From: Palleronia pelagia
GTDB taxonomy: Bacteria > Pseudomonadota > Alphaproteobacteria > Rhodobacterales > Rhodobacteraceae
Direction: 5' to 3'
Length of the DNA stretch: 64,000 bases
Assembly (NCBI RefSeq): GCF_900110115.1
Contig: NZ_FOCM01000001.1
Location: 372,001 to 436,000 of the forward strand
The notes beneath the pieces were generated by a model that ran no database searches, was not told the origin of the DNA, and saw only the letters and a list, made by a program, of their open reading frames with translations. Below, piece by piece: positions 17,386-41,520 of the stretch; position 1 is the stretch's first letter, and every line of letters begins with the position of its first letter. The position numbers and the translations under genes were made by a program.

Positions 17386-19155
17386 TTATTCGGCCGAGGC
17401 CAGCTGCTTCGGCAGCTTGAAGGTCCAGAGAAGACCACCCTGGTTGAGGTAGTTGACCTTCTTGGCGACTTCGCCACCCCAGAGCGGCACCGCGCCGCCC
17501 CAGCCCGAGATCACGGTCACGTACTGCTCGCCGTCCTGTTCCCAGGTGACGGGCTGGCCGACGATGCCCGAGCCGGTCTGGAACGACCACAACTCTTCGC
17601 CGGTCTCGTCGTCATAGGCGACGAAGCGGCCTTCGGGGGTGCCGGTGAAGACAAGGCCGCCCGCGGTCGCCATCACGCCACCCCAGAGAGGCGCGTCGTT
17701 TTTGGCTTCCCAGACCCATTCGCCGGTATTGGGATCGATGGCCTTGAGCGACCCGATATGGTCCTCGTAGTTAGGCTTGATGGTGAAGCCCGAGCCCAGA
17801 TAGGCCGCGCCCTTCTTGTAGCTGATGGGCTCGTTCCAGATATCCATACCCCATTCGTTCGAGGGCACGTAGAACAGGCCCGTCTTCGGCGAATGCGCCA
17901 TGGGCATCCAGTTCTTGCCGCCCAGGAACGAGGGCGACGAGAACACGATCTCGCCCTTCCCGCCGTCGGCGGCCTCGGACGGATCGCCGGGGCGGTTGTC
18001 TTCGTTGAAGATCGGGCGGCCGGTGTCGTCGATGCCCTCGGCCCAGGTGATGTCCTTCACGAAGGGCGCGGCCGAGACGAAAGCGCCGTCTTCGGCGTTC
18101 AGAACGTAGAAGAACCCGTTGCGGTCGGCAGTGGCCAGGCGGTCGTTGCCCTCGGCGTCCTGGAAGGCGACGACCTCGTTCACGCCGTCGTAGTCCCACC
18201 CCTCGCGCGGGGTGGACTGGAAGTGCCATTTGATCTCGCCGGTGTCGGGGTCGATCCCCAGCCGCGAGGCGGCATAGAGGTTGTCGCCGGTGTTGCCCTC
18301 GGTGGGCTGGCCGGCGCCGCGCAGGTGGCTGTTCCACGGCGCGGGGTTGCCGGTGCCGAAGATCAGCGTGTTGGTGCGCGCGTCGTACGAGCCGCCCAAC
18401 CAGGTGGCGCCGCCACCCGTCTTCCACATATCGCCCGGCCAGGTGGCGTTCAGCTCGCCCGTCATGGTCGATTCTTCGCCGTTGAGGGTGCCCATGTGGC
18501 CCTCGATCACGGGGCGGGTCCAGACCATCTCGCCGGTGTCGGCGTCGCGGGCCTGCACTTCGCCGACGATGCCGAACTCACCGCCCGAGTTGCCGGTCAC
18601 CACCAGCCCGTCCACGATCAGCGGTGCGGCGGTGTAGGAATAGCCGGCCTTGTAGTCGGCGATCTTGTCGCGCCACACCACGTCGCCGGTCTTCAGGTCC
18701 AGCGCCACCAGGCGCGCATCCAGCGTGCCGAAGATGATCTTGTCGTTCCAGATGGCGGCGCCGCGGTTCACCACATCGCAGCAGGGCAGGATGCCCTCGG
18801 GCAGGCGCGCGTCGTACTGCCAGATCTCCTCGCCGGTCTTGGCGTCGATGGCGTAGAGGCGCGAGTAGGAGCCGGTGATGTACATGATCCCGTCATGGAT
18901 CAGCGGCTGGGTTTCCTGGCCGCGCTGCTTCTCGCCGCCCAGGCTGAAGGCGTAGGCGGGCACGAGGTTGGCCACGTTGTCCTTGTTGAGCATGTCTAGC
19001 GGCGAATAGCGCTGCAGGTCACGGCCCATGCCGTTGGTCAGCACGTCGCCGCCCGAGGCGGCGTCGCCCGCCAGCATCTCTTCGGTCACGCCCTGGGCGT
19101 GCGCGACGCCGGTGGCCAGAAGGCCCGCGGCGACGATGGTAACGAAACGATTCAT
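17386..19155 (-). CDS. PQQ-dependent alcohol dehydrogenase, lanthanide-type (XoxF/ExaF-like)
   Basis: Periplasmic eight-bladed quinoprotein that oxidises alcohols and passes electrons to cytochrome c. 589 residues with a signal peptide cleaved near AHA|QG. Visible signatures: vicinal disulfide C125-C126 in LPCCDVV, metal ligands E183 (GGEFG) and N260 (GTGNPAPW), and the catalytic region WDYDGVNE with D311 and D313. The second Asp two residues after the catalytic Asp is the recognised lanthanide-binding signature; calcium enzymes carry Ala or Ser there. The [11 protein letters not shown] segment looks more like ethanol-type than methanol-type enzymes, so substrate is open. GGGAGGA precedes the ATG. 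It diverges from an ABC importer gene. Confidence 0.9.
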
Positions 19156-19412
19156 TGGTGTCCTCCCTGATCGTTTGGGACGCAGACGCATCCCGGTCCG
19201 GACACGCTCGCAGTCGGCTCGATCATCGGCAGGCCTCTAGGCCACACATATTGAACAATGGTCGTACGACCCTGGGCGGGCGCGCGGTTGGCACGGAATT
19301 TCTTCTTGCGCTCAGTGGTTTGGCCGCGCGCCGCCGGCGCGTTTCGCCTTTGGTCGTATATGGATGCCGGCGCCCGCTGGTATCGTCGCGACAGCCACCC
19401 TGGGAGGAGATC

Positions 19413-20387
19413 ATGGGAGTCATCAAGGCATTCGGCGCCGCCGTTCTGGCGGGCGCCCTCGGTACGGTCGCGGCATGGGCCGAGACGCCGACATTGCGCG
19501 CCGCGGTCCTGAAGTTCGGCACCGTCAACTGGGAGCTCGACACGATCCAGCACTACGGTCTGGACGCCGAGCAGGGCTTCACGCTCGACGTGCAGGGCGT
19601 TGCATCGGGCTCGGCGGGCGAGATCGCGTTCCAGGGCGGCGAGGCCGACGTGATCGTGTCCGACTGGCTCTGGGTGGCGCGGCAGCGCGCGGCGGGCCGC
19701 GACTACGTGTTCATTCCGTATTCCAAGGCGGTGGGCGGCGTGCTTGTCCCGGAAGGCTCCGGCGCCATGACGCTGGCGGATCTCGCCGGTGGCAAGATCG
19801 GTATCGCGGGCGGCCCGTTGGACAAGTCCTGGTTGATCCTCCAGGCCTACGCGCGGTCCGAGCTGGGCATGGACCTGTCCGGCGAGACCGAGCAGGTCTA
19901 CGGCGCGCCCCCGCTCATCTACAAGACGGCGACGGGCGGCGACCTGGATGGCGCCATCAACTACTGGCACTTCATGGCCAAGATGGAAGCCGCCGGCATG
20001 CGCAAGCTGATCGATATCAGCGACGCGGCCATAGCCCTTGGACTCGACCCCGAGACGCCGCTGCTCGGATATGTGGTGAAGGGCGAGATGTTGCGTGATT
20101 CCCCCGAGTTGGTGCGCGGTTTGGCCGCCGCGTCGCGCGCCGCGAAGGACCTGCTGGGCACCGACGACAGCGCGTGGGACCGGCTGCGCGACCGCATGAA
20201 TGCCGACAACGACGCCGAATTCGCGGCACTGGTCCAGGGCTTTCGCGCGGGTATCCCGGCCGAGGGTCCGGTGGACGAGGCCGCGGCCACGCGCATGCTG
20301 TCGCTGATGGCCGAGCTTGGCGGGGACGAGCTGGTGGGCGAGGCGACCGAGCTGCCCGAGGGCACGTTCCTGCAACCCGGCAGCTGA
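19413..20387 (+). CDS. ABC transporter substrate-binding protein, NitT/TauT (SsuA-like)
   Basis: 324 residues with a Sec signal peptide ending near AWA|ET. The mature protein is an SsuA/THI5-like type II periplasmic binding fold: TLRAAVLKFGTVNWELDTIQHYGLD, then FQGGEADVIVSDWLWVARQRAAG and GGPLDKSWLILQAYARSELG. Family members bind small organic acids, sulfonates, nitrate or pyrimidine precursors; the ligand cannot be read here. GGGAGG precedes the ATG. Its stop overlaps the ATPase start (TGATG). The matching permease is not adjacent; the best candidate lies at 35312. Confidence 0.88.
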   Translation: MGVIKAFGAAVLAGALGTVAAWAETPTLRAAVLKFGTVNWELDTIQHYGLDAEQGFTLDVQGVASGSAGEIAFQGGEADVIVSDWLWVARQRAAGRDYVFIPYSKAVGGVLVPEGSGAMTLADLAGGKIGIAGGPLDKSWLILQAYARSELGMDLSGETEQVYGAPPLIYKTATGGDLDGAINYWHFMAKMEAAGMRKLIDISDAAIALGLDPETPLLGYVVKGEMLRDSPELVRGLAAASRAAKDLLGTDDSAWDRLRDRMNADNDAEFAALVQGFRAGIPAEGPVDEAAATRMLSLMAELGGDELVGEATELPEGTFLQPGS

Positions 20388-21067
20388 TGTCGGCCACCGT
20401 GACCGAACTCAGACCGGGCGGTTCCGATCGCCCGGTTCTGCATATCCGGATCAACGGATTGCGGCTGGACGGGCGGCCCGTCCTGGGCGCGATGGAGCTG
20501 CGGGTGAAGCGCGGCGAGACGGTGGCGCTGGTCGGCCCGTCGGGCATCGGCAAGACGACGCTGCTGCGCGCCGTGGCCGGGCTGCAACGCGGGGCCGAGG
20601 GGCATATCGACGCCCCCGCGCGGACCGCGATGATCTTCCAGGAGCCCACCTTGCTGCCCTGGCGCACGCTGACCGACAACCTGCGGGTCACGACCGGGAT
20701 TGATGCGGGCGCGGCCGACAAGCTGCTCGCCGAAATCGGGCTGGGCGGGCGCGGGGATGCTTTTCCGGGCCAGCTGTCGCTGGGCCAGCAACGCCGGATG
20801 GCGCTGGCCCGCGCCTTTGCCACGCGGCCCGAGCTGTTGCTGATGGACGAACCCTTCGTGTCGCTCGATCCCGGACTGGTGGACGAGATGATGGGCCTGT
20901 TCCTGCGCCTGCGCGCCGAGACTCAGGCCACCACGCTGTTCGTGACCCATGTGCGGGACGAGGCGGCGCGTCTGGCCAGCCGGATCGTCACGCTGGGCGG
21001 GCCGCCTGCGACGGTGGTCGACGACGCGCCCAACCGGGCCGGACCCAAGGGGGTGGGATACTGCTGA
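20387..21067 (+). CDS. ABC transporter ATP-binding protein, NitT/TauT type
   Basis: 226 residues. Walker A GPSGIGKTTL (~residue 48), Q-loop MIFQEPTLLPWRTLTDNL, a degenerate signature LSLGQQRRMALARA (LSLGQ in place of LSGGQ), Walker B LLLMDEPFVSLD and the switch His in FVTHVRDEA. Short for the family, and with a Gly-Pro-rich tail. The start codon overlaps the binding-protein stop, so the two are coupled. No permease follows; the next gene is on the other strand. Confidence 0.88.
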   Translation: MSATVTELRPGGSDRPVLHIRINGLRLDGRPVLGAMELRVKRGETVALVGPSGIGKTTLLRAVAGLQRGAEGHIDAPARTAMIFQEPTLLPWRTLTDNLRVTTGIDAGAADKLLAEIGLGGRGDAFPGQLSLGQQRRMALARAFATRPELLLMDEPFVSLDPGLVDEMMGLFLRLRAETQATTLFVTHVRDEAARLASRIVTLGGPPATVVDDAPNRAGPKGVGYC

Positions 21068-21103
21068 CCTGCGGATCGATCCCGCCCGTGCCGTTGCGGC
21101 GGC

Positions 21104-21643
21104 TCAGAACAGCGGCGCGAACCGCCACTCGTCCGCGTCTGGCGTGACCGCGTTCGGGTCGTAGTCCGCCGCCTGAAGGCGCTTGGCGATATCCAGACCG
21201 TCGCGCGCGGCGGCATCGACCATGCGGCGGCCTTCCTCGGCGTCCTTGGCGATGCCGTGGCCGCGCAGCAGGTTCATGCCGTGGTTGAACTTGCCCACCG
21301 GGTCGCCCAGGTCCGCGGCACGCCGGTCCCACGCGGCACTCGCGTCGGGGTCGTAGTCGCCGCCCAGCCCGTTGTTGTCCAGCTGGCTCATCCACGTCAT
21401 CGCGCCGGGATAGCCCGCCTCGGCGCAGCGCTCGAAAATCGCGCGGGCCGTGGCGTGGTCGCCGGACTTCGTCATCATGTAGCCCGACGCGCACAGGGTC
21501 ATCGAGGTCTCGCCCCGCGCCGCGCGATCACGCATGGATTGCCACGTCATCTCGTCTGGATTGAGGGTGCCCAACGGATCGTCCTCGGCCAGGGCGGGCA
21601 AGGCGATCAGGCAGGCGATGGTGCAGGACAGGATCTGTTTCAT
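21104..21643 (-). CDS. Sel1-repeat exported protein
   Basis: 179 residues with a signal peptide (MKQILSCTIACLIALPALA|ED). The mature part carries Sel1/TPR-like helical repeats: HATARAIFERCAEAGYPGAM, WDRRAADLGDPVGKFNHGMNLLRGHGI, EEGRRMVDAAARDGLDIAKRL. Probably a periplasmic scaffold. It is the last gene of the minus-strand ABC/beta-propeller operon, 60 bases after the permease. The start is placed at the signal peptide Met rather than an upstream in-frame Met with Arg-rich leader. Confidence 0.78.
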   Translation of the reverse strand: MKQILSCTIACLIALPALAEDDPLGTLNPDEMTWQSMRDRAARGETSMTLCASGYMMTKSGDHATARAIFERCAEAGYPGAMTWMSQLDNNGLGGDYDPDASAAWDRRAADLGDPVGKFNHGMNLLRGHGIAKDAEEGRRMVDAAARDGLDIAKRLQAADYDPNAVTPDADEWRFAPLF

Positions 21644-21703
21644 GGGTCCACACCTAGCACGATCGTCCCGGCGCACCCATCGCGCCATGGTCGTAGACCG
21701 GGA

Positions 21704-22492
21704 TCAGGCGCGCTTGCGGATCAGGCCGCGGGCCGGGTCGTATCCCCAGATCGCCAGGGCCCCGAAGGCCAGCGTGGCCAGCGTGACCCAAAGCAGCGCC
21801 CAGGGCTCGAGCCGCAGATACAGCGCGAAGCGGATCAGCTCGACCGCGTGGGTGAAGGGGTTCACCGCGCAGATGTCGTGCAGGAGTTCGGAAGATTCCG
21901 CCATCTTCCAAAGGGGATAGAGGGCGGAGCTGAGAAAGAACATCGGGAAGATCACGAAGTTCATCACGCCCGCGAAATTCTCGAGCTGGCGGATGAAGGA
22001 CGACAAGGCCAGCCCCAGGGCGCCCAGCATCAGGCCCGCCAGCGCAAGCGCGGGCAGCACCGTGACATAGCCCCAGCCCGGCACGGTGATGCCGAACAGC
22101 GCGGCGATGGCGAGGAAGGCGTAGACCTGCAGGATCGAGATCGCGGTGGCGCCCGCCAGCTTCGACAGCAAGAGCCACCAGCGCGGCAGCGGTGCGGTCA
22201 GCAACAGCCGCATGGACCCCATCTCGCGGTCGTAGACGAGGCTCAGCGCGCTCTGCATCCCGTTGAACAGCAGGATCATGCCGCACAGGCCCGGCACGAT
22301 ATAGGTCTCGTAGGTGATGTAGGTCTGGTAGGGCGGGATGATGCTGAGCCCCAGTGCGGCGCGGAACCCGGCCGCGAAGACCAGCAGCCACACGAGTGGA
22401 CGCACCAGCGCGGCGAGGAACCGCTCGCGCTGGTGGACGAAGCGCAGGGCCTCGCGCGCGACGATCGCCCTGAAGGCGGTGAGCCAGCTCAT
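21704..22492 (-). CDS. ABC-2 type transporter permease (PedC/LutF-like)
   Basis: 262 residues, six membrane helices, ABC-2 family. Clear blocks: VREALRFVHQRERFLAALVRP-type opening, PGLCGMILLFNGMQSALSLVYDREMGSMRLL (family core), and FPMFFLSSALYPLW. ABC-2 permeases of PQQ-alcohol-oxidation loci (PedC in Pseudomonas putida, lut genes of Methylobacterium) have been tied to lanthanide handling; similarity and context support that here, but it is an inference. The partner ATPase lies 94 bases upstream; the gap contains an interspersed repeat. Confidence 0.82.
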   Translation of the reverse strand: MSWLTAFRAIVAREALRFVHQRERFLAALVRPLVWLLVFAAGFRAALGLSIIPPYQTYITYETYIVPGLCGMILLFNGMQSALSLVYDREMGSMRLLLTAPLPRWWLLLSKLAGATAISILQVYAFLAIAALFGITVPGWGYVTVLPALALAGLMLGALGLALSSFIRQLENFAGVMNFVIFPMFFLSSALYPLWKMAESSELLHDICAVNPFTHAVELIRFALYLRLEPWALLWVTLATLAFGALAIWGYDPARGLIRKRA

Positions 22493-22570: not shown

Positions 22571-22586
22571 GGGCGGGCGGCGCGGA

Positions 22587-23300
22587 TCATGCGGCCACCC
22601 TGGTCAGGGTGAGGAACGTGTCGGAAAGGTTTGATCCTGCGGTGATTTCGGCGGCGCGGCCGTCGCGCAGGATGCGCCCCCGGTGCAGGATCAGGAGATG
22701 GTCGTCGGCGCGCACCTCGTCCGTCAGGTGGGTGGCCCAGAGGACGGTCAACCCGTCGCCGCAGAGGTCGTGGACGTGGTCGGTGATGGCGCTGCGGCTG
22801 GCGGCATCGAGGCCCACGGTGGGTTCGTCCAGCAGCAGCACGCGGGGCCGGTGGACCAAGGCGCGCGCGATCTCGGCCCGGCGGCGGTGGCCGCCGTTGA
22901 GGGCCCGCGCCCGCTCGCCCGCCCGTGCCCGCATGTCCAGCCGGTCGAGCGCGGCGTCGATCCTTGTGTCGGCCTCGCGTCCCGAGATCCCGTGCAGCGC
23001 CGCGAAATAGCGCAGGTTCTGCCGCACGGTCAGGTCCAGGTCGAGCGTCGTCTGCTGGAACACGATGCCCATGGCCCCCAGCGCCCGGCGCGGCGCGGTG
23101 TCGAGGTCGTGCCCCGCCATCGTGATCCGGCCGCCGGCGGTCGTGAAAAGCCGCGTCAGCAGGCCGAACAGCGTGGATTTTCCTGCCCCGTTCGGGCCCA
23201 GAAGGGCGCAGAATCGGCCCGCCGGAATGTCGAAGGACACCCCGTCCAGCGCCTGCCGCGCGCCGTAGGAGAAGCTCAGATCCGCGACCGACAGGCTCAT
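22587..23300 (-). CDS. ABC transporter ATP-binding protein of PQQ-alcohol locus (PedB/LutE-like)
   Basis: 237 residues, ABC-2 type exporter ATPase. Walker A GPNGAGKSTLF, Q-loop GIVFQQTTLDLDLTVRQNL, a signature reduced to ALNGGHRRRAEIARAL (NGG in place of SGG), Walker B LLLDEPTVGLD and switch His in WATHLTDEV. It resembles the ATPase subfamily named after PQQ-dependent alcohol dehydrogenase systems (TIGR03864). The ATG overlaps the stop of the preceding small exported protein by four bases, so expression is coupled. Confidence 0.85.
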   Translation of the reverse strand: MSLSVADLSFSYGARQALDGVSFDIPAGRFCALLGPNGAGKSTLFGLLTRLFTTAGGRITMAGHDLDTAPRRALGAMGIVFQQTTLDLDLTVRQNLRYFAALHGISGREADTRIDAALDRLDMRARAGERARALNGGHRRRAEIARALVHRPRVLLLDEPTVGLDAASRSAITDHVHDLCGDGLTVLWATHLTDEVRADDHLLILHRGRILRDGRAAEITAGSNLSDTFLTLTRVAA

Positions 23301-23725
23301 TGGATGGTAATCTCGACCCTCTGGGTTTCGCCCTCGGTTCCGGGGATCGCCAGCGCGTAGCTGCCGGGCTTGATCGCGATGAAGCCGATTTCCATGGTGC
23401 CGGCCTCGTCGAATTCGACCGAATCAAGCCCCAGTGGCCGGATTTCCAGCCCGTTGATGACGATCTCGTCGATCCAGATGGCGCGAAAGAAGGCGGCGCC
23501 GGCCAGCGCCAGTTCCTGGCTGCCGTCCGCCTGGATCTCGATCTCGTAATAGGTGCCGGATTGCAGCGTCAGAGGACCGTCCGACACGGGCTGGCCGGCG
23601 GCAAGCGTCAGGGGCGGAAGGTCCTCTTTGTTGCCCGCGCTCAGGAGGCCGGCGAAGCCGAGATCGTGGGCGATGGCGGGGCCGGCGGCCAGCACCAGGG
23701 CAAGGGGCAGGGCGCGAAAGCGCAT
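23297..23725 (-). CDS. small exported protein, beta-rich, in PQQ-locus ABC operon
   Basis: 142 residues with a clear signal peptide (LPLALVLAAGPAIA|HD). The mature protein is predicted mostly beta: PLTLQSGTYYEIEIQADGSQ, AFFRAIWIDEIVINGLEIR, MEIGFIAIKPGSYALAIPG. It looks like a cupredoxin-type sandwich but has no Cys or Met copper ligand set, so it is not a copper protein. It lies between the beta-propeller gene (11-base gap) and the ABC ATPase (4-base overlap). A similar small exported protein occurs in lut-type loci; equivalence is a guess. Confidence 0.7.
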   Translation of the reverse strand: MRFRALPLALVLAAGPAIAHDLGFAGLLSAGNKEDLPPLTLAAGQPVSDGPLTLQSGTYYEIEIQADGSQELALAGAAFFRAIWIDEIVINGLEIRPLGLDSVEFDEAGTMEIGFIAIKPGSYALAIPGTEGETQRVEITIQ

Positions 23726-23736
23726 GTACGGTCCTT

Positions 23737-24708
23737 TCAGTTGGTGGGGCGGAAGGCGGCACCCCAGGGGAAGCGACCCACCTTGATGGTCTTCTCGGCC
23801 GTGCGCGAGGCCACGTCGACGACGGTCACGTCGCCCGACAGCCCGTTGGTGGTGAAAAGCTTGCTGCGGTCCGCGTTGAACGCCATGTGCCAGACCCGGC
23901 GGCCCACCAGGATGTAGTCCTCGACCTCGTAGGTCTCGGCATTGACCACGGCCAGGTGGTTCGATGGCCCCAGCGCGACGAAGGCGATCTCGTCTCCGTT
24001 GGTGAATTCGAACCCCACGGGTTGCACGCGGTCGGGATGGATGTTGGGCAGGTCGAAATCGATCTTCGCCTTCTCGGACTGCGTTTCGACGTCGAACACG
24101 GTGATGGTGCCGCCGATTTCCGAACTGACCCACAGCTCGGTTCCGTCCTTCACGAACTCGGCGTGGCGGGGGCGGCTGTCGACCAGCGTGTTGGCGAAAA
24201 GCTCCTGCGTCTCGGTGTCGATCCAGTGCGCCATGTTGGTGGTCTCGGACGTGGTGATGGCGATGGTGCCGTCGGGGCTGACCGCCATGCCTTCGGGCTC
24301 GATTCCGACGTCGATCTGGGCCACGACCTCGCGCGAGACGGTGTCGACCACGGTGGTGATCGCGTCGTCCTCGTTCGCGATGTAAAGGTGCCGGTTGTCG
24401 GGGTGCAGCACGAATTGCTCGGGGTCCTCGCCCGAGGGCAGGTCGTGCAGGATCTCGCCGGTTTCCGGGTCCATGACCTGCACCGCGTCACTGTCGGACG
24501 CGCAGATATAGACCACGCTGTGATCCTTGGCGAAGGTGATGCCGCGCGGGCGTTCGCCGGTGGGAATGGTACGCGTGACTTCGAGCGTCTCGATGTCGAT
24601 GACCGAGATCGTGTCGTCGAATTCATTTGTCACCCAGATCTCGTCGGCCTGTGCGGGCAGGGCGACTGCCAGGGCGAGCGCGCTGGTGGCAAGGGTGGTT
24701 CGGATCAT
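23737..24708 (-). CDS. PQQ-catabolism-associated beta-propeller protein
   Basis: 323 residues: signal peptide ending ALPAQA|DE, then YVTN/NHL-type seven-bladed propeller repeats such as IWVTNEFDDTISVIDIETLEV, VVYICASDSDAVQVMDPETG, HLYIANEDDAITTVVDT and KLFTTNGLSGDVTVVDVASR. This matches the periplasmic propeller recurrently found beside PQQ alcohol dehydrogenases (TIGR03866). Molecular role not established; a metal or protein-interaction chaperone role is possible. 75 bases after the binding protein gene in the same operon. Confidence 0.85.
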   Translation of the reverse strand: MIRTTLATSALALAVALPAQADEIWVTNEFDDTISVIDIETLEVTRTIPTGERPRGITFAKDHSVVYICASDSDAVQVMDPETGEILHDLPSGEDPEQFVLHPDNRHLYIANEDDAITTVVDTVSREVVAQIDVGIEPEGMAVSPDGTIAITTSETTNMAHWIDTETQELFANTLVDSRPRHAEFVKDGTELWVSSEIGGTITVFDVETQSEKAKIDFDLPNIHPDRVQPVGFEFTNGDEIAFVALGPSNHLAVVNAETYEVEDYILVGRRVWHMAFNADRSKLFTTNGLSGDVTVVDVASRTAEKTIKVGRFPWGAAFRPTN

Positions 24709-25947: not shown

Positions 25948-26080
25948 CCGCTCAGCGTATGGTGCGCCGCGGGTCGGGGAATTCGACTTTGGTGCAGGCA
26001 GGCGAAGGTCGCATGGAGCGGATGCGTCCGCTGCAGTAGCCATGGTGCCAACGCAGACCATGCAAGTGGAGGAGCAGATC

Positions 26081-28288: not shown

Positions 28289-28323
28289 CCGCGACGATCA
28301 TCGGACCATCCAGGGAGAAAGAC

Positions 28324-28809
28324 ATGAATTCCATCAAGCTGCGCGTGAACGGCAAGGAGGTGACCGGCCAGGTCGAGGGCCGGACCCTTCTGGTCGACTT
28401 CCTGCGCAAGGACCTGCGCCTGACCGGCACCCACGTGGGCTGCGACACCACCCAGTGCGGTGCCTGCGTGGTGCACGTGAACGGCGAGCCGGTGAAGGCC
28501 TGCGCGATGCTGGCGGCCGAGGCCGACGGCGCCGAGGTCGCCACGATCGAGGGCCAGGCCAATGCCGACGGTTCGCTGTCGGTGGTCCAGCAGGCGTTCC
28601 AGGACCACCACGGCCTGCAATGCGGCTTCTGCACGCCGGGCATGGTGATGGCGGCGACCGCGCTGCTGAAGGAGAACCCCAAGCCCTCCGAGGCCGAGAT
28701 CCGCGAATACCTGGACGGCAATATCTGCCGCTGCACCGGGTACCACAACATCGTGAAATCCATCATGGCGGCCTCCGGTCAGGACGTGCCCGCCATGGCG
28801 GCCGAGTAA
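28324..28809 (+). CDS. coxS: xanthine dehydrogenase-family small subunit (CoxS-like, 2x[2Fe-2S])
   Basis: 161 residues, cytoplasmic electron-transfer subunit. The N-terminal plant-type ferredoxin domain has C40, C45, C48 and C60; the C-terminal four-helix domain has C100, C103, C135 and C137 (QCGFCTPG and CRCTGY). Length and cysteine pattern are those of CoxS/NdhS-type subunits. GGGAGAAAG lies before the ATG. It precedes the large subunit by 69 bases. Confidence 0.94.
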
Positions 28810-28878
28810 TCCAGAACATCGTTTCAGGGGCCGGGATGTCGCGACGCGAGATCTGACCCCGCAGGGAGGAGATTCCAC

Positions 28879-31245
28879 ATGCCCAAAGACGGCGGCATCG
28901 GCAGCAGCACCAAACGGCGCGAGGACGTACGCTTCCTCAGCGGCACGGGGCGCTATACCGACGACATCAACCTGCACGGCCAGCTCTACGCGCATTTCGT
29001 GCGCTCGGACGTGGCCCACGGCAAGATCAACGGCATCAACGCGGACGCGGCCATGGCCATGCCCGGTGTGGTGCGCGTGTTCACCGCGAAGGATTTCGAA
29101 GGCGTGGGCGGCGTGCCCTGCGGCTGGCAGATCACGTCCATCGACGGCAGCCCCATGCAGGAGCCCAAGCACCCCGTCCTGGCCGAGGGCAAGGTGCGCC
29201 ACGTGGGCGACCCGATCGCCGTGGTCGTGGCCGAAAGCCTGGGCCAGGCCCGCGACGCGGCCGACGCGCTCGAGATCGATATCGAGATGCTGCCGGCGGT
29301 CATGGACATGAAGGAAGCCGTCAAGGATGGCGCGCCCAAGGTGCATGACGACCTGAGCTCGAACCTCTGCTACGACTGGGGCTTCGTCGAGGACAACAAG
29401 GATGCCGTCGCCAAGGCCATCGCCGATGCCGACCACGTCACCACGCTGGAGCTGGTCAACAACCGCCTCGTCGCCAACCCGATGGAGCCGCGCGTGGCCG
29501 TCGGCGACTACGACATGGCCAATGACGAGCACACGCTCTACACCACGTCGCAGAACCCGCACGTGATCCGCCTGCTGATGGGCGCCTTCGTGCTGGGCAT
29601 CCCCGAGCACAAGCTGCGCGTGGTCGCCCCCGACGTGGGCGGCGGTTTCGGCGCCAAGATCTTCCACTACGCCGAGGAAGCGTTCTGCACCTTCGCGGCC
29701 AAGCAGCTGCGCCGCCCGGTCAAGTGGACGTCCTCGCGCTCGGAAGCGTTCATGTCCGACGCCCACGGTCGCGACCACGTGACCAAGATCGAACTGGCGA
29801 TGGACAAGGACAACAACTTCACCGCCATCCGGACGGAAACCTACGCCAACATGGGCGCCTACCTGTCCACCTTCGCCCCGTCGGTCCCCACCTGGCTGCA
29901 CGGCACGCTGATGGCCGGCAACTACAAGACGCCGCTGATCTACGTGAACGTGAAGGCCGTCTTCACCAACACGGTGCCGGTCGACGCCTACCGCGGCGCG
30001 GGCCGCCCCGAGGCGACGTTCCAGCTGGAGCGGGTGATCGACAAGGCGGCGCGCGAGCGCGGGGTCAGCCCCATCGAGCTGCGGCGCCAGAACTTCATCA
30101 CCGAGTTCCCCTATGCCACGCCCGTGGCGGTGGAATACGACACCGGTGACTACCACGCGACCATGGACCGCGTGCTCGAGATGGCCGATCACGCCGGCTT
30201 CGAGGCGCGCGCCGCGGAAAGCAAGAAGAACGGCAAGCTGCGCGGCTTCGGCATCGCCCACTACATCGAGGCCTGCGGCATCGCGCCGTCGAACCTCGTG
30301 GGTCAGCTGGGCGCCCGGGCGGGTCTCTACGAATCCGCCACCGTCCGGGTGAACGCCACCGGGTCGATCAGCGTGATGACCGGCAGCCACAGCCACGGGC
30401 AGGGGCACGAGACCTCGTTCGCACAGGTGGTGTCCGAGATGATCGGCATCGACGCCACGCAGGTCGACATCGTCCACGGCGACACCTCGAAGACGCCCAT
30501 GGGCATGGGCACCTACGGCTCGCGCTCGATCGCGGTCGGCGGCTCGGCCATGGTCCGCGCCACCGAGAAGATCATCGCCAAGGCCAAGAAGATCGCGGCC
30601 CACCTGATGGAGGCCAGCGAGGGCGATATCGAGCTGAAGGACGGCCAGTTCACCGTCGCGGGCACCGACAAGTCGGTCGCCTGGGGCGACGTGACGCTGG
30701 CGGCCTACGTGCCCCACAACTACCCGCTGGAGGACATCGAGCCGGGGCTGGAGGAAACCGCGTTCTACGATCCGGCGAACTTCACCTATCCGAGCGGTGG
30801 CTATGCCTGCGAGGTTGAGGTCGACCCGGACACTGGCAAGGTCGACGTGCTGTCCTTCTCGGCCGCGGACGATTTCGGCAACGTCATCAACCCGATGATC
30901 GTCGAAGGCCAGGTCCATGGCGGTGTGGCGCAGGGCTTCGGCCAGGCGATGATGGAAAACTGCGCCTACGACGCGGACGGACAGCTGATCTCGGCCAGCT
31001 ACATGGACTATGCCATGCCGCGCGCGACCGATCTGCCGATGTTCAAGGTGGACCATTCCTGCCAGACGCCCTGCACCCACAACCCGCTGGGCGTGAAGGG
31101 CTGCGGCGAGGCCGGTGCCATCGGCTCGCCCCCGGCCTTCGTCAACGCGGTCATCGACGCGCTGCACCGGGGCGGCCACAAGGTCGAGCACATCAACATG
31201 CCGCTGACCCCCGACCGGGTCTGGACCGCCATCCAGAACAGCTGA
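28879..31245 (+). CDS. coxL: molybdopterin-binding large subunit, form II CoxL-type
   Basis: 788 residues, catalytic subunit of a xanthine dehydrogenase-family molybdenum hydroxylase. The N-terminal aldehyde oxidase a/b hammerhead domain begins [19 protein letters not shown]. The cofactor-binding domain has GGGFGAKIF, the active-site loop AYRGAGR at residues 370-376, [10 protein letters not shown] and the catalytic Glu E744 in GCGEAG. True CO dehydrogenases (form I) carry AYRCSFR with the Cys that holds copper; AYRGAGR marks form II, whose substrate is uncertain and may not be CO. GGGAGGAG precedes the ATG. Gene order here is G-S-L-M. Confidence 0.93.
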
Positions 31246-31266
31246 GGTCCAGGAACTGAAGGCGGA

Positions 31267-31291
31267 CCCCCGCGCGTGACCCGCGCGGGGG
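31267..31291 (+). promoter_or_regulatory. intercistronic hairpin between coxL and coxM
   Basis: Perfect ten-pair GC stem (31267-31276 with 31282-31291) with a five-base loop and no T-run, so not a classical terminator. It could protect the coxL message 3' end or dampen coxM expression. Confidence 0.55.
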
Positions 31292-31319
31292 CAACCCGAC
31301 CCAACAGGAGACAGAGAGA

Positions 31320-32108
31320 ATGCAGAATTTCGAATTCGTCCGGCCCACCAGCGTTGCCGACGCGGTCGCGGCCCTGAAGGGCGACGAGGCGCAGCCCATG
31401 TCGGGCGGCCAGACCTTGATGCCCACCATGAAGGCCCGGCTTGCCGCGCCCGAGATCCTGGTGAGCCTGACCGCCATCGACGAGATGAAGGGCGTCCGCA
31501 AGGACGGCGACCAGATCTGGATCGGCGGCGGCACCACCCACGCCACCGTCGCGCGCGAGACCGCCGAAAGCTTCCCGGCGCTGTCGTCGCTGGCGGGACG
31601 CATCGGTGATCCCAGCGTGCGATCGCGCGGCACCATCGGCGGGTCCATCGCCAACAACGATCCCTCGGCCTGCTACCCGGCGGGCGCACTGGGGTCGGGC
31701 GCCACCATCGTCACCGACCGCCGCGAAATCGCGGCCGACGACTTCTTCCAGGGCATGTTCATGACCGCGCTGGACGAGGGCGAGATCGTCACGGCAGTGA
31801 AGTTCCCGGTGCCGCAAAGGGCGATCTACCAGAAGTTCATCCAGCCCGCGTCGCGCTTCCCGCTGACGGCCGTGTTCGTCGCCCATTTCGGCGACGATGT
31901 CCGCGTGGCCGTCACCGGCGCGTCCTCGGACGGCGTCTTCCGCTGGACCGAGGCCGAGGAGGCGCTGAAAGGCAACTTCAGCGCCGACGCGGTGTCGGGG
32001 CTGAGCGTGTCGGCCGACACGATGATCTCGGACCTGCACGGCTCGGGCGCCTACCGCGCGCAGCTGACCAAGGTCATGACCCAGCGCGCGGTGTCCGCGC
32101 TGGCCTGA
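31320..32108 (+). CDS. coxM: FAD-binding medium subunit (CoxM-like)
   Basis: 262 residues, flavoprotein subunit that passes electrons from the Fe-S subunit to the acceptor. The FAD-binding motifs are GGQTLMPTMK (~residue 28) and TIGGSIANNDPSACYPA (~104). The C-terminal CO_deh_flav domain includes KFIQPASRFPLTAVFVA. It ends the coxGSLM run and is followed by a strong terminator. No separate acceptor subunit or CoxDEF accessory genes follow directly; MoxR/VWA homologues lie at 58-63 kb. Confidence 0.92.
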   Translation: MQNFEFVRPTSVADAVAALKGDEAQPMSGGQTLMPTMKARLAAPEILVSLTAIDEMKGVRKDGDQIWIGGGTTHATVARETAESFPALSSLAGRIGDPSVRSRGTIGGSIANNDPSACYPAGALGSGATIVTDRREIAADDFFQGMFMTALDEGEIVTAVKFPVPQRAIYQKFIQPASRFPLTAVFVAHFGDDVRVAVTGASSDGVFRWTEAEEALKGNFSADAVSGLSVSADTMISDLHGSGAYRAQLTKVMTQRAVSALA

Positions 32109-32132
32109 TCCCAGGGGTGAGACAGGATCGGG

Positions 32133-32160: not shown

Positions 32161-32207
32161 GCGTTGCGCCCACATGTGAACGGCGCACGGGTCGGCAGCG
32201 GATCGCC

Positions 32208-32229
32208 GAGTATTTGAAGACCAGTGATG
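32208..32229 (+). repeat. interspersed repeat, type B
   Basis: Element GAGTATTTGAAGACCAGTGA followed by TG, between the cox terminator and the convergent apbE gene. Nearly identical copies lie at 45077 (inverted), 50780, 50873, 50914 (inverted) and 55376 (inverted). Confidence 0.7.
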
Positions 32230-32245
32230 CGAGGGGCGTGGCGCG

Positions 32246-33103
32246 TCAGATCCGGCGGTGGCGGCCGTTGGCATCGACCGTGTGGATGGCCGTGGCGCCG
32301 GCGCCTTCCAGCAGACCGGGAAGCTCCCCGGGCGCCATGAACAGCGCGGCAGTCGACAGGGCGTCGGCCAGGGTGGCGTCCGGCGCCTCGACCGACACCG
32401 TGGCGTGGCGGGACGCCCTGCCATCGGGCGCGATCAGGTGCGGCGCCGCGCTGGTGGTGGCGATGGCGCCACCGGTGAGGGTCGTCCGGGCGACGAGGCC
32501 GGCGGCGGGGTCGGCGATGCCCAGCTGCCAGGGGCCGCCAAGCGCCGCGAATTCCCCCATGTTGACCAGGATCTCGCCCAGGCCCAGCGCGGCGAGACGC
32601 GCGCGCACCCTGTCGGTGGCGAAGCCCTGGGCGATGCCGTTGAAGGTCAGCGACTGGCCCCGCCGCAAGGCCACGGTCCCGGGCGCGCGATGGACGCGGT
32701 GCCACCCCACCGCGGCACGTGCGGGCGCCGGGTCGCGGCCTTGCGCCAGGGCCGCCCAGACGGCTTGCACGGTCGGGTCGAACAGGCCGCCGGTCAGCGC
32801 GTGCGCGCGGTCCACCTGCTGCGCGAGCTCGGTGAACAGGGGCGAGGGCCGCAAGATGCGCGAGGTGTTCAGCTGCACGAGTTCGCTGTCCTCGCGGTAG
32901 AAGCTGAAGGCCCGTTCGACGGTCTCGATCTCCTCGCGTGCGGCGGCGATGGCGTCGCGGGCCAGCGCGGGGGGCGCGCGCAGGGTCATCGACAGTTCGG
33001 CCCCCAGCCCGAAGCCGCGCCAACGGGTCTCGGGCCAGGCCGGGGTCGCGGCGGGCGCGGCCAGCGCCGCGGCGCTGAGGGCGAGGAAGCGGCGGCGTCT
33101 CAT
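32246..33103 (-). CDS. apbE: FAD:protein FMN transferase, ApbE family
   Basis: 285 residues. A Tat-like or Sec signal (MRRRRFLALSAAALAAPAA) marks a periplasmic enzyme. ApbE core: VERAFSFYREDSELVQLN, GLFDPTVQAVWAAL, LTFNGIAQGFATDRV, ILVNMGEFAALGG, and the C-terminal AALFMAPGELPGLLEGAGA. The enzyme attaches FMN covalently to a Thr in an S/TGAT-type motif of a partner. Its start overlaps the stop of the NosR-like gene by four bases, and that protein has such a motif, so this pair is a modifying enzyme and its target. Confidence 0.9.
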   Translation of the reverse strand: MRRRRFLALSAAALAAPAATPAWPETRWRGFGLGAELSMTLRAPPALARDAIAAAREEIETVERAFSFYREDSELVQLNTSRILRPSPLFTELAQQVDRAHALTGGLFDPTVQAVWAALAQGRDPAPARAAVGWHRVHRAPGTVALRRGQSLTFNGIAQGFATDRVRARLAALGLGEILVNMGEFAALGGPWQLGIADPAAGLVARTTLTGGAIATTSAAPHLIAPDGRASRHATVSVEAPDATLADALSTAALFMAPGELPGLLEGAGATAIHTVDANGRHRRI

Positions 33104-35223
33104 TCGGCGGGCACCGGGCCGGCATTGGGGTGGGCGGCGGTCGCGCGGGCCCGCCGCTTGGCGTCCACGATCAGCGGCACGCATTGGCGCGGGTCGTCGT
33201 GGATCGTCACGCAGTCGAGGCATTGGAAGCATTCGGAATAATCCACGCGGCCCGATTTCTCGATGCTGCCATAGCGGCATTTCACGCGGCAGAGCTGGCA
33301 GGGCGAGCCGCATTCCGCCCGCCGCGCGATCCAGTCGCGTCCGCGCAGGACGCCGCCGATGGCCATGAGCGCGCCCAGCGGGCAGACATAGCGGCAGAAC
33401 CCCTTGAAGAGCGTCATGGACAGCACCAGCCAGAAGACGGCGTAGGCCACGTAGTACCATTCGCGCACGAAGAAGGTGGTGATCGCGGTCTTGAACGGCT
33501 CGACCTCGGCGGCCTTGTCGATGCGGGCGGGCGCGGTGAAGACGACGACCACCAGCGCCAGCAGCACCGCGTATTTCAGCCATTTCAGCCGCGCGTCCCA
33601 CCGCGCCGACGGCTCGACCTGCGGCACGCGCAACAGGCGGCCCAGATGCGCGGCGAACTCCTGCAACGCGCCGAAGGGGCAGAGCCACCCGCAGAACAGG
33701 CCGCGCCCCCAGGCCACCAGCCCGGCGATGGCCACGGCCCAGATCACCAGCGAGAAGGGGTCGTAGGCCAGGAACATGAAACTGCCGCCCTCGACGCCCG
33801 CGCGCAGCACGCCCATGGCCGTGACGATCGACAGCTGCCCCTGTCCCCACCAGCCGATGAAGACCGTGACGAAGGCCAGGATACCCAAGCGGATCGCCGT
33901 GAAGTGGCGATGCCCGGCCAGCCGGTTCATCGCCCCGCCCAGCAGCATCAGCAGCAGCGTGAGGAACAGACCCAGCACGACCAGATCGGGCGCACGGGTC
34001 TTCAGCGCCTCGAGCCAGGGCGGCGCGGGCTTGCGCAGCTCGGGCCGGGTGAAGAAGCGTTCGGGCGTCGATTGCGTGCTGCTGAGCGTGACGGATCCCA
34101 CCTCGGGCTTGAACATGCCGTGTTCGCGCACCGCCTTCACGTTCAGCGTCCAGTCCGACGCGGGGTCGAAGCCCAGCCGCCGGTCGGTGCGCAGGATCAG
34201 GGCGGATCCGAAATCCACCGCGTCGTGCAGCGCGTCCGGCACGTCGTCGGCCAGCGAGAACAGCAGGTCCGCGTCGCGCAGCGCCACCGGGAAGCCGCCC
34301 TGCTCGGCGCTGATCCAGTCGGGCGACGTATTGCGCGTAAACCCGTCAGAAACGAGGCCGTGGCGCGCGGTCTCGGCCACGAGGATCGGCTCGTCGTCGT
34401 TCGAGATCTCGAGGAAGGACTGCAGCGCCGCGAAGCCATCCTCGGACAGCACGGCGCGGGCGATGGCGGGCGGGCCGAGGTCGACCACCCACAGGTCCAT
34501 GTAGGGCGCGTCGGGGTCGTCGCGCGCGGCGGGGTCGTCATCCGCCCAGACGGTGCCCGCGAATTCCGCGTCGATCTCGGCATTCGTCACCGTCAGGCGC
34601 CGCACGATGCCCTGGTCGACCAGGTCGGCCCAGCTCAGCGCCTCGTCATGGGTCGGGTCGGGATAGGCGGGCGGGCCGCTGCTGATCCCGCCCATCTTCT
34701 CGCGCGCGACCTGCAGCGTGGCGGCCAGAAGCGACTCGTGCGCGATCCGGACCGAGGCGGTGGCCTTGGTCACCCCGTCCAGGTAGACCAGCGCGCTGCT
34801 CTCGTCCGCCTCGCCGTAGGGGTTGCCCACCACCAGCGTGTCCGAGATCGACAGGCCGCGGTACTGGTCGAAGAAATCGTAGAACAGGTGCTCGGGCAGG
34901 CCCGAGACGAAGATCGGCTCGTTATGGTCCAGAAGCCGGACGTCCAGGAACCGGCCGTCGAGATCCAGCACCACCAGCACGTTCACCGGTGCACCGGAGA
35001 AGCCGGGCAGGGGGGCCATGGGCCGCGTCTCAAACACGTAGCCCGCCGCCGCGCCGCCCGAGTTCAGAAGGCTGTAGACCCCCTGGTCGTTCAGCGCCGG
35101 GCCCAGCTCCATGGGCGCGCGGATATGGGCGGCGATCTCGTCGCGCGGCGTGACCTCGGCGCGGGCGGCATGGGCCGCCACGGCCAGAGCAAGGGCAAGG
35201 ATCAGTGACAGCACCCGCGACAT
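33100..35223 (-). CDS. NosR/NirI-like flavo-iron-sulfur membrane protein
   Basis: 707 residues: signal peptide; periplasmic FMN-binding domain (~80-175) with DGVTKATASV, where T155 is the likely flavinylated Thr; a second periplasmic region to ~420; then five to six membrane helices carrying two CxxxCP motifs (FCGWLCPFGAL and FCRYVCPLGAL); and a C-terminal cytoplasmic ferredoxin-like segment with CGSPCQLCRVKC and CFQCLDC for two [4Fe-4S] clusters. Family members move electrons between quinol and the periplasm (NosR for N2O reductase). There are no nos genes here, so the partner is probably the PQQ/cytochrome system or a cofactor-repair step (inference). It diverges from the permease gene at 35312. 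Confidence 0.87.
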   Translation of the reverse strand: MSRVLSLILALALAVAAHAARAEVTPRDEIAAHIRAPMELGPALNDQGVYSLLNSGGAAAGYVFETRPMAPLPGFSGAPVNVLVVLDLDGRFLDVRLLDHNEPIFVSGLPEHLFYDFFDQYRGLSISDTLVVGNPYGEADESSALVYLDGVTKATASVRIAHESLLAATLQVAREKMGGISSGPPAYPDPTHDEALSWADLVDQGIVRRLTVTNAEIDAEFAGTVWADDDPAARDDPDAPYMDLWVVDLGPPAIARAVLSEDGFAALQSFLEISNDDEPILVAETARHGLVSDGFTRNTSPDWISAEQGGFPVALRDADLLFSLADDVPDALHDAVDFGSALILRTDRRLGFDPASDWTLNVKAVREHGMFKPEVGSVTLSSTQSTPERFFTRPELRKPAPPWLEALKTRAPDLVVLGLFLTLLLMLLGGAMNRLAGHRHFTAIRLGILAFVTVFIGWWGQGQLSIVTAMGVLRAGVEGGSFMFLAYDPFSLVIWAVAIAGLVAWGRGLFCGWLCPFGALQEFAAHLGRLLRVPQVEPSARWDARLKWLKYAVLLALVVVVFTAPARIDKAAEVEPFKTAITTFFVREWYYVAYAVFWLVLSMTLFKGFCRYVCPLGALMAIGGVLRGRDWIARRAECGSPCQLCRVKCRYGSIEKSGRVDYSECFQCLDCVTIHDDPRQCVPLIVDAKRRARATAAHPNAGPVPAE

Positions 35224-35311
35224 GCGCCAACGCTACGTCCGCGCCGCGCGCGGTCCCATGCGACGAAGGTCGGGATGCGTTGCGCAGCCCCCACGGGCGA
35301 ATGTCGAACCC

Positions 35312-36097
35312 ATGCAGCAGCACGCCTCCTCCGACCGCAATCCCGGCCCCGTGACCATCGCGGTGTCGCTGCTGGCGCTGGTCGTTGCGTGGGCGCTGGC
35401 GGCGCGTATCTCGGCCGACCCCGAGATCCTGCCGGGCCCGGACGAGGTCTGGCGCATCTTCACCTCCGAGGTCGCGAAGGGCGCGCTGCAGTTCCACGTG
35501 GCGGCCACGCTGGCGCGGATGGCGGCGGCCTTCGCCATCGCCATGGGGGCGGGCGTTGCGTTGGGGCTGGCGCTGGGACTGGTACCACGGCTGAACCGCT
35601 GGCTGGGCCCGTGGGTAGTGGTGGCGCTGAACGTGCCCGCGCTGGTGGTGATCGTCCTTTGTTATCTCTGGATCGGCCTGAACGAGGTGGCGGCGATCAC
35701 CGCCGTCGCGCTGAACAAGACCGCCATGGTGACGGTAAACATCCGCGAAGGGATCTGGGCGCTGGATCCCCGCGTGTCCGAGATGGCGCGCGCCTTCCGC
35801 ATGTCGCCCGCGGCGCGGCTGCGCCACGTGATCCTGCCGCAGCTCTGGCCGTTCCTGGCGGCCAGCACGCGCAACGGGCTGGCGATCATCTGGAAGATCG
35901 TGCTGGTGGTCGAGTTCCTGGGACGCTCGAACGGGGTCGGCTTCCAGATCCACCTGTATTTCCAGCTGTTCGAGGTCGGCTACGTCTTGGCCTACGCCTT
36001 CGCCTTCGTCGCGGTGATGCTGCTGATCGAGTACGCTTTGCTGCAGGGCTGGGAACGGCGGACCACCGCCTGGCGCAGGGCCGCCGTCACCGGCTGA
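35312..36097 (+). CDS. ABC transporter permease, NitT/TauT (SsuC-like)
   Basis: 261 residues, six membrane helices, BPD_transp_1 fold. The EAA-like loop is EMARAFRMSPAARLRHVILPQLWPFL; the opening and FLGRSNGVGFQIHLYFQLFEVGYV are typical SsuC. It has no ATPase or binding protein beside it. The window's only matching pair is at 19413-21067 on the same strand, 14 kb away, so together they probably make one importer split by the PQQ/cox block. Start at 35312 lacks a strong ribosome site. Confidence 0.85.
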   Translation: MQQHASSDRNPGPVTIAVSLLALVVAWALAARISADPEILPGPDEVWRIFTSEVAKGALQFHVAATLARMAAAFAIAMGAGVALGLALGLVPRLNRWLGPWVVVALNVPALVVIVLCYLWIGLNEVAAITAVALNKTAMVTVNIREGIWALDPRVSEMARAFRMSPAARLRHVILPQLWPFLAASTRNGLAIIWKIVLVVEFLGRSNGVGFQIHLYFQLFEVGYVLAYAFAFVAVMLLIEYALLQGWERRTTAWRRAAVTG

Positions 36098-36326
36098 TCC
36101 ATGCGCGGCCCGCCGCTGGTCAGGCGCGGGCCGATGGGTCGGAACCCGCCACCGCTTCGACGTTGTTCCGGCGCGCGCGATGCGGCGCCGATTGCAGGCA
36201 GTGTGGCCGGCGTGGGACCGCCGGAAACATGTAGTCCGGGGTGTGGTCGCTGACGGGTCCCTTCGGCCGGGCGAATGTACGGATGCCTGGCCTTCGCGCC
36301 CGGCGCCGAATTCACGGAGAGCACAG

Positions 36327-36554
36327 ATGACCCGATATATCCTGATCCTTGCCTTCTCCAGCCTGTGGATGTCGTCATCCCACGCCCAGGAGATCGACGC
36401 CGATGGCGACGGACTACTGAGCCTGCGCGAGGCGCAGACCGCCATCCCGGAACTGACCGAAGAGGTCTTCTTGATGGCCGACACCGACGGCAACGGGCTG
36501 CTTAGCCAAGCCGAACTCCTTTCAGCCAACGAGCGTGGCCTGCTGCCCAGCTGA
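36327..36554 (+). CDS. small exported EF-hand protein
   Basis: 75 residues: signal peptide (LILAFSSLWMSSSHA|QE), then two EF-hands in ~52 mature residues. The loops are DADGDGLLSLRE and DTDGNGLLSQAE, each with acidic positions 1, 3 (and 5 or Asn 5) and a Glu at 12. That makes a paired calcium-type site in the periplasm. Loop position 2 is Ala or Thr, not the Pro of lanmodulin, and there are two loops instead of four. Even so, a secreted EF-hand protein next to a lanthanide-type dehydrogenase locus is suggestive. GGAGAG lies before the ATG. Its stop is 37 bases from the convergent ilvN. Confidence 0.8.
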   Translation: MTRYILILAFSSLWMSSSHAQEIDADGDGLLSLREAQTAIPELTEEVFLMADTDGNGLLSQAELLSANERGLLPS

Positions 36555-41512: not shown

Positions 41513-41520
41513 GACCGGAG

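Follow-up and report, generated by a model that had tools for sequence, protein, structure and literature searches.

A putative lanthanide- and PQQ-linked alcohol oxidation island with a candidate PQQ importer in Palleronia pelagia

Several described systems come close to parts of the locus analyzed here, namely, positions 17386-36554 of a 64,000-nucleotide stretch of the Palleronia pelagia genome (contig NZ_FOCM01000001.1 of assembly GCF_900110115.1, positions 372,001-436,000; this whole stretch is hereinafter the window, and its numbering is used throughout), which encodes a predicted alcohol dehydrogenase (ADH) dependent on pyrroloquinoline quinone (PQQ). The ped cluster of Pseudomonas putida KT2440, as described in the accessible parts of the respective reports (PMC12997753, PMC6839425), includes the PedA1A2BC families of an ATP-binding cassette (ABC) system, reported to supply lanthanide (PMC6839425), cytochrome PedF, a PedH-type ADH and, after pedF, a PedG/XoxJ-like protein, all of which have counterparts in the window. 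The lut cluster of Methylorubrum extorquens AM1, according to the available text of PMC7391723, shares with the window an ABC binding protein, ATPase and permease as well as exported proteins that serve a lanthanide quinoprotein, and also includes the TonB receptor LutH and lanmodulin. Another protein of M. extorquens, PqqT, is a periplasmic PQQ-binding protein with a Kd of 50 nM that, as described in the accessible parts of two reports, supplements the PQQ made by this bacterium itself (PMC12124388, PMC12828617). PQQ scavenging is also the role of PqqU, a TonB-dependent outer-membrane importer that differs from the proteins of the window in being a receptor of the outer membrane; in the accessible part of the same work, PqqU is largely absent from Alphaproteobacteria, which are inferred to be mainly PQQ producers (PMC12124388). 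Finally, NosR of N2O reduction, which comes with ApbE/NosX, has been studied in Paracoccus where, in the accessible part of the report, the copper center is assembled without a need for NosX and the electrons are proposed to come from NosR (PMC7660919).

Compared with the ped cluster, the window adds a PqqT-type importer, a NosR-like protein with ApbE, and Sel1-like, cupredoxin-like and FIST proteins, and the genome has no match to pqqC or pqqE. It appears probable that the locus is a lanthanide- and PQQ-dependent alcohol oxidation island in which the importer captures external PQQ and the NosR-like protein with ApbE provides a second electron conduit. The ADH would oxidize an alcohol in the periplasm with PQQ and, probably, a lanthanide, handing the electrons over to PedF, with a putative second exit via the NosR-like protein, and the PedA1A2BC-type system would handle the lanthanide supply. 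The PqqT-like protein would capture PQQ from outside, and the ABC importer would draw it in, because the bacterium apparently does not make PQQ. ApbE would flavinylate the adjacent NosR-like protein, yielding a conduit that links the ADH/PedF side to the quinone pool in the membrane, and a set of a kinase, a FIST protein and a response regulator would likely control the island; we infer this regulation, as well as the use of a lanthanide, from the sequences.

All genes named in an initial annotation of this DNA (the PQQ dehydrogenase, the ped/lut-type ABC system, PedF, a XoxJ-like protein, cox, the ApbE/NosR pair and an EF-hand protein) were recovered at their places in Pfam and NCBIfam profile searches of the window proteins, and all island genes are open and free of internal stops. 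The gene order is similar in many relatives and, on the Shinella plasmid pShin-04, identical, importer included, except for the missing cox genes, which is more than expected by chance; the scattering of these genes in related genomes, which, according to the initial annotation, would have refuted its proposal, was largely not observed. The module is narrower than proposed there, with respect to cox and the EF-hand gene, and wider, with respect to the importer and the regulators: the importer genes, the Sel1-like gene and the kinase/FIST/LuxR-type set to the left of the block had been overlooked.

The ADH gene (17386-19158, minus strand) encodes a PedH/ExaF-like protein that scores 763.6 bits against TIGR03075 (cut-off 480) and, in a sequence search of PDB, is closest to 6zcv and 6zcw (819 and 814 bits, respectively), which we take to be PedH, followed by 1flg (679 bits) and the XoxF entries (~322 bits). 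The protein contains a vicinal pair of cysteines and the motif GWDYDG, in which the second Asp, two residues past the catalytic one (D-x-D), is presumably the lanthanide signature; D-[YF]-D is kept in all 18 related island loci that cover the site, and three more loci end before it. Thus, the ADH is probably of the PedH/ExaF type and uses a lanthanide with PQQ, and the lanthanide-signature PQQ oxidation island envisaged in the initial annotation is borne out, the scores of the ped families, given below, included. In the genome to which the window belongs (G000, 99.96% complete), this is the sole TIGR03075 match over the cut-off. The same genome encodes a second, distant quinoprotein (C3:21304-23082, locus L055) that is ~25% identical and reaches 151 bits, below the cut-off of this family.

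Next to the ADH gene, on the plus strand, are the genes for an NMT1-type binding protein (19413-20387, with an inferred start; the queries covered 19326-20384) and an ABC ATPase (20384-21067; ABC_tran match, with Walker A and an LSLGQ signature read from the sequence), which adjoins the binding protein in relatives as well. Family libraries gave only generic matches for this pair, so that a generic NitT/TauT nitrate/sulfonate transporter was the first assignment, replaced by PqqT after the PDB search: the binding protein matches 9b1u and 9b1v with an E-value of 1.5e-65 and 9ooz with 1.1e-64. The AlphaFold2 model of the protein (pLDDT 90) retrieves with Foldseek, as the top three matches, ‘PqqT Y161W Variant with PQQ', ‘PqqT with PQQ and Gd3+' and ‘PqqT with PQQ' (E-values of 4e-32 to 7.6e-32, TMt of 0.89-0.91, 41% identity), and the fourth match has an E-value of 1.6e-15. 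Apart from the fold, the window protein shares with PqqT the counterpart of Y161 (Y213 in the window protein, with Y or F throughout the 19 rows that make up alignment A2) and, within the motif GGPLDKSW, a lysine (K167) that does not vary in this alignment. The permease gene (35312-36097, plus strand; BPD_transp_1) lies ~14 kb away from its putative partners, a difference from the PqqT system; it can be matched to them because several PQQ loci that lack the ADH, as well as three loci with it (L024, L026 and L029), have the orthologs of all three genes side by side. The window arrangement, with the permease beyond the NosR-like gene and apart from its partners, recurs in the remaining 13 of the 16 loci that contain the full importer. 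Despite this split, the importer is inherited as a whole: among the 28 loci with the ADH, PedC and the NosR-like gene in view, 16 contain the full set, 12 none of it and not one a partial set (26 distinct loci, 16 full and 10 with none, given that two pairs come from the same contig; the sequence of L009 does not reach the permease position). We predict, then, that 19413-21067 and 35312-36097 make up a split PqqT-type ABC importer, whose putative ligand is PQQ and whose putative role is uptake. The supply of a cofactor by the island itself, posited in the initial annotation, accordingly holds up, in the form of an importer that was not recognized there.

The case for uptake draws on what the genome does not encode. 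Genome-wide, there is no match to pqqC at 1e-40 or to pqqE at 1e-30 in G000 (these two families agree across the 36 genomes checked for both), so the bacterium is apparently unable to make PQQ. Neither is there a PF00593 match for a TonB receptor, nor a candidate on first look, which rules out scavenging of the PqqU type in this genome and implies that PQQ would cross the outer membrane only by diffusion or by some other route. We surveyed 149 genomes of the family, approximately one per genus, in which the ADH orthologs are 77-86% identical to the window protein (plus the window's own), the NosR-like ones at least 59% and coxL at least 66%, with PedC counted over its cut-off; this survey yielded 30 genomes with the ADH, 31 with the NosR-like protein, 45 with PedC, 38 with PqqT-like proteins, 33 with pqqC and 104 with coxL. 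PqqT is present in all 14 ADH-encoding genomes that lack pqqC, eight of which, the window's included, have no TonB receptor match, and in 8 of the 16 that possess pqqC (Fisher p 0.0027). With the less complete genomes removed (G147, G098 and G133 without pqqC; G078 and G124 with it), the counts are 11/11 and 8/14 (p 0.02). One more family member, from a sample of 337 genomes of the class (G399), combines a TIGR03075 enzyme and PqqT with the lack of pqqC.

A second line of evidence comes from gene positions. Among 94 NosR-like loci that extend at least 4 kb past the start of this gene (duplicate contigs included), 52 contain the importer permease without pqq genes, 22 contain pqqB/C/E without the permease, 5 contain both and 15 neither (p 2e-7); in a named set of 72 loci, the respective numbers are 38, 16, 5 and 13 (p 1.3e-4, with kinship not corrected for). 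All five loci with both are from Tateyamaria. The two alternatives occupy the same place. Of the 63 permease loci, 58 have the permease start at 77-432 bp upstream of the NosR-like gene, and the other five have this gene together with that of the binding protein. Of the 30 pqq loci, 28 have their nearest pqq gene at an upstream distance of 71-1612 bp, the greatest distances being those in Tateyamaria, where the permease comes in between. In two loci (L009 and L023), the pqq genes are on the other side of the NosR-like gene. The Leisingera plasmid pBMJM1_4 has the same frame as the window, but the importer and the Sel1-like gene are missing, and pqqABCDE immediately follows the NosR-like gene. 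The PQQ supply in relatives is modular: the slot immediately upstream of the NosR-like gene is often filled by either the importer permease or pqq genes. Parts of the island match 98 plasmid records, none of which covers more than 80% of it in one place, so that it is partly plasmid-borne.

Within the genus, a sibling genome (G066) retains, in the same order, the genes for the FIST protein, the response regulator, PedC, PedB, coxGSLM, the EF-hand protein and ilvHB. At this locus, there are no significant matches to the ADH, the PqqT-like binding protein, the Sel1-like protein, the small exported protein, the propeller, PedA1, PedF, the XoxJ-like protein, ApbE or the NosR-like protein (genome-wide searches did not extend to PedF, XoxJ and ApbE), and the importer ATPase and permease survive as fragments. 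Searches of the whole G066 genome returned neither NosR-like nor PqqT matches, and no ADH ortholog exceeding 40%; pqqC and pqqE are present, along with a XoxF-type enzyme (L137; an assignment from 37-40% identity) that is accompanied by a separate PedA1, propeller and small exported protein. This case, close to a natural deletion, implies that the NosR-like protein is tied to the ADH and not to lanthanide use as such. It also fits the expectation that PQQ synthesis makes the importer dispensable, but this is a single case in which several losses are confounded.

Several observations weigh against a role of the importer in feeding an auxotroph. The identity of the binding protein to PqqT is only ~41%. 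The expected location of the ADH is the periplasm, yet an inner-membrane importer would carry PQQ inward, toward the cytoplasm; explaining this by storage or by a return path would be guesswork. The contrast between genomes with and without pqqC loses significance once relatedness is controlled for: among five independent pairs that differ in pqq, PqqT differs in the same direction in none and in the opposite, predicted direction in two or three, the rest being equal (sign test p 0.25-0.5; the pairs lie on the starred branches of a NosR-like tree of 29 rows, with 19 of its 26 inner branches not starred, and genome G020, with its fragmented PqqT-like gene, was counted among the PqqT carriers). 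On this tree, the pqq state changes at least nine times and PqqT four times. In the class sample, only 8 of the 44 genomes with a TIGR03075 match and no pqqC encode PqqT, and 28 of the 36 PqqT carriers with a TIGR03075 match possess pqqC, so that PqqT serves producers, too. Given that 36 of all 38 PqqT carriers in this sample have a TIGR03075 match, PqqT is a general companion of PQQ enzymes; that it is constant in auxotrophs holds for this family but not for the class.

These observations bear on an alternative that we regard as unlikely, namely, that the importer is a device for the retention of leaked PQQ, with PQQ entering by diffusion through porins, the pqq genes lost recently and the island on its way out. 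The M. extorquens PqqT is described, in the accessible part of the report, as limiting PQQ loss as well as helping capture (PMC12124388), many PqqT carriers have pqqC, and the G066 sibling has already lost the ADH set. However, decay is not what is seen in the window, where the island genes are intact, nor in its relatives, where the importer is kept in each of the 14 genomes with the ADH and without pqqC, and D-[YF]-D in the island loci covering the site.

The NosR-like protein (33100-35223, minus strand), assigned by ortholog identity and motifs to an ADH-linked subfamily, and the adjacent flavin transferase ApbE (32246-33103, minus strand; PF02424) are the other departure from the ped and lut clusters. 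The NosR-like protein is encoded in 29 of the 30 surveyed genomes with the ADH and in 2 of the 119 without it; the exceptions are the ADH alone in G147 (73% complete) and the NosR-like protein alone in G020 (95%) and G122 (76%). In two genomes (G063 and G035), the two genes are present although unlinked. Orthologs from 30 other genomes of the 149 share 59-74% identity with the window protein and are separated by a gap from all other NosR/NirI-type hits, which do not exceed 39%. ApbE accompanies the NosR-like gene in 77 of the 80 named loci, which are the best 80 of at least 587, and the carriers among these are mainly Rhodobacterales, with the addition of Granulosicoccus, a Rhodospirillales metagenome-assembled genome and Pelagibius. 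Accordingly, the larger module suggested in the initial annotation stands as far as NosR and ApbE are concerned.

With NosR, as described in the accessible part of PMC7660919, the window protein shares the length, the membrane part, the Fe-S cysteines and the adjacent ApbE; it differs from the NosR of N2O reduction in the low identity (39% at most), in the flavinylation site and in the linkage to a PQQ-dependent ADH. It scores 465 bits against the NosR model, below the cut-off of 1000, and matches among solved structures are marginal (RnfG and others). The C-terminal Fe-S cysteines are common to the NosR-like protein and the NosR-type protein L143, and are invariant in 17 sequences. A point against flavinylation is that the site departs from the canonical SGATxT, with T-K-A-T-A-S in place of the SGATVT of L143; K153 and S157 of the T-K-A-T-A-S site are invariant in the 17 NosR-like sequences. 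The protein may be a flavin/Fe-S conduit by which the ADH/PedF side and the quinone pool of the membrane exchange electrons.

We also doubt an alternative in which the NosR-like protein and ApbE, together with PedBC and the propeller, are a maturation apparatus of the ADH, akin to NosR/NosX with NosDFY, and not an electron route. The combination of an ABC-2 transporter, a periplasmic propeller and NosR/ApbE does resemble the nos cluster, and the co-occurrence in 29 of 30 genomes would be expected of a maturation factor, too. Nevertheless, G066 keeps PedBC and a XoxF-type enzyme with no NosR-like match; in five islands (L097, L099, L109, L126 and L128) that contain the ADH and the NosR-like protein, the stretch in view from the propeller to the ADH includes neither PedB nor PedC nor the small exported protein; and the roles described for NosX and NosR in Paracoccus (PMC7660919, accessible part) are not those of assembly factors.

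Some further carriers of the NosR-like gene differ in their surroundings. In G020 (locus L144), the NosR-like, ApbE and importer permease genes were found with no ADH ortholog, the contig beginning near the NosR-like gene. The Granulosicoccus-type (gammaproteobacterial) contigs L110, L111, L112 and L126 encode the NosR-like protein with ApbE; an acetolactate-synthase-like gene (42% to ilvB) is nearby in L110-L112, and L126 is an ADH island with PedBC not in view.

Taken together, the importer, the pqq genes and the NosR-like protein could define a ‘make-or-import' PQQ island of Rhodobacterales, which relies on either pqq genes or a PqqT importer and needs no TonB receptor, along with a new class of flavinylated NosR-like partners of quinoproteins, a generalization that we put forward tentatively, as an almost even bet. 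If true, there would be PQQ scavengers without a TonB receptor, contrary to the view of Alphaproteobacteria as mainly producers, and many marine Alphaproteobacteria would have a candidate PQQ importer, from which one could predict the PQQ auxotrophs among them that depend on their neighbors; furthermore, a vitamin-like cofactor would be made or taken by gene exchange inside one island, and the quinoprotein ADH would gain an apparently dedicated flavin/Fe-S membrane partner. In the open-access literature searched, as far as its accessible text goes, there was no description of such a partner for a quinoprotein ADH and no report of PqqT-type scavenging in Rhodobacterales, and the only work found on NosR, ApbE and PQQ together is on N2O-respiring methanotrophs. 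The word PQQ is absent from the main texts of two flavinylation surveys (PMC8238504, PMC10979944), and an article on lanthanides in the ocean (PMC11996626) mentions neither PqqT nor NosR. The parts, then, are of known kinds, whereas the way they are combined, the alternation between making and importing PQQ at a single position and the NosR-like partner linked to the ADH appear new against this literature.

The ped-type ABC system forms a single run of minus-strand genes, all four families scoring above their cut-offs: the ABC-2 permease PedC (21704-22492; TIGR03861, 438 bits, cut-off 241), the ATPase PedB (22587-23300; TIGR03864, 344 bits, cut-off 302), the PedA2-type beta-propeller (23737-24708; TIGR03866, 505 bits, cut-off 287) and the PedA1-type binding protein (24784-25953; TIGR03863, 468 bits, cut-off 414), with one small exported protein (23297-23731) between the ATPase and the propeller. 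The system is Ped-like rather than a full Lut because a TonB receptor of the LutH type is lacking, with zero PF00593 matches in G000. The small exported protein has no family match in profile searches; its model (pLDDT 88) points, in a Foldseek search, to a cupredoxin-like fold, and alignment A3 contains no conserved Cys, His or Met, hence no conserved copper ligands. In many of its orthologs, the signal peptide is followed by a stretch of Asp residues.

In an island of this ordinary ped/lut kind, the extra ABC system could, in principle, be a second metal importer, for a lanthanide-PQQ complex or a lanthanophore, a possibility we consider rather improbable. It is compatible with the crystallization of PqqT with PQQ and Gd3+ (PMC12828617, accessible part), with the TIGR03075 enzymes of 36 of the 38 PqqT-encoding genomes and with the presence of PqqT near XoxF-type genes. 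A metal importer, however, should not be replaceable by PQQ synthesis, yet pqq genes occupy the permease position, and PqqT, which in the family survey all 14 ADH genomes lacking pqqC encode, is missing in 8 of the 16 with it.

Beyond the ABC run, on the plus strand, are the genes for the cytochrome c550 PedF (26072-26773; TIGR04494, 196.5 bits, cut-off 122) and a PedG/XoxJ-like periplasmic binding protein (26770-27672), in the position after pedF as in P. putida (PMC12997753, accessible part). The latter protein, named XoxJ-like in the initial annotation, is indeed present, as a candidate counterpart of XoxJ or PedG: the only Pfam match is SBP_bac_3, the NCBIfam match is a weak one to a cystine-binding family, and the 12 weak PDB sequence matches include none named XoxJ or MxaJ. 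On the other side of the run, the Sel1-like small exported protein (21104-21688, minus strand; Sel1 match below the cut-off) is found in many ADH islands.

The coxGSLM operon (27752-32108, plus strand; Pfam and NCBIfam matches) encodes a molybdenum hydroxylase resembling carbon monoxide dehydrogenase form II: the CoxL protein falls short of the form I cut-off of TIGR02416 (633.8 of 991 bits) and contains AYRGAGR, which we take to be the form II motif. This operon is a frequent resident of the island, sitting between the XoxJ-like and NosR-like genes in 43 of the 78 loci with both in view (some of these are duplicate contigs), and is not tied to the ADH by presence, with coxL orthologs in 23 of the 30 genomes with the ADH and 81 of the 119 without it (Fisher p 0.5). 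Two classes of coxL, ~69% identical (L064, L067, L070, L076, L078 and others) and ~80% or more identical (L057, L065 and L093) to that of the window, share the same island place, hinting at replacement or at two form II lineages.

The exported EF-hand protein (36324-36554, plus strand; Pfam), which we judge to be outside the module, was seen only in three Palleronia loci (L036, L057 and L058) among the loci fetched, and no genome-wide EF-hand search was made; a motif scan of the first 56 loci yielded no convincing candidate in other loci, and many loci extend only a short way past the permease. An identification as lanmodulin was rejected: the LanM model gives 16.4 bits against a cut-off of 135, and the EF loops have no proline at position 2, which we assume to be a criterion of lanmodulins. 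One large lanthanide module that would include cox and the EF-hand protein, as proposed in the initial annotation, is thus highly improbable: the shared position of cox in 43 of 78 loci speaks for it, but the presence of cox is independent of the ADH, and among the loci fetched none outside Palleronia showed the EF-hand gene.

To the left of the ADH gene, also on the minus strand, there are genes for a hybrid histidine kinase with PAS, HisKA, HATPase and receiver domains (13094-15310, approximate start; Pfam), a FIST-domain sensor protein (15310-16590, approximate start; Pfam FIST and FIST_C) and a LuxR-type response regulator (16508-17218; Pfam Response_reg and GerE), which likely control the island. 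The FIST and regulator genes adjoin the ADH gene in several relatives, and a PAS-domain gene lies beside them on the Shinella and Leisingera plasmids. Neither tRNAs nor Rfam matches at the gathering score were detected anywhere in the window. Beyond the block, at 40421-44903, the translations reveal a TRAP-type transporter set that consists of a binding protein and the small and large membrane subunits.

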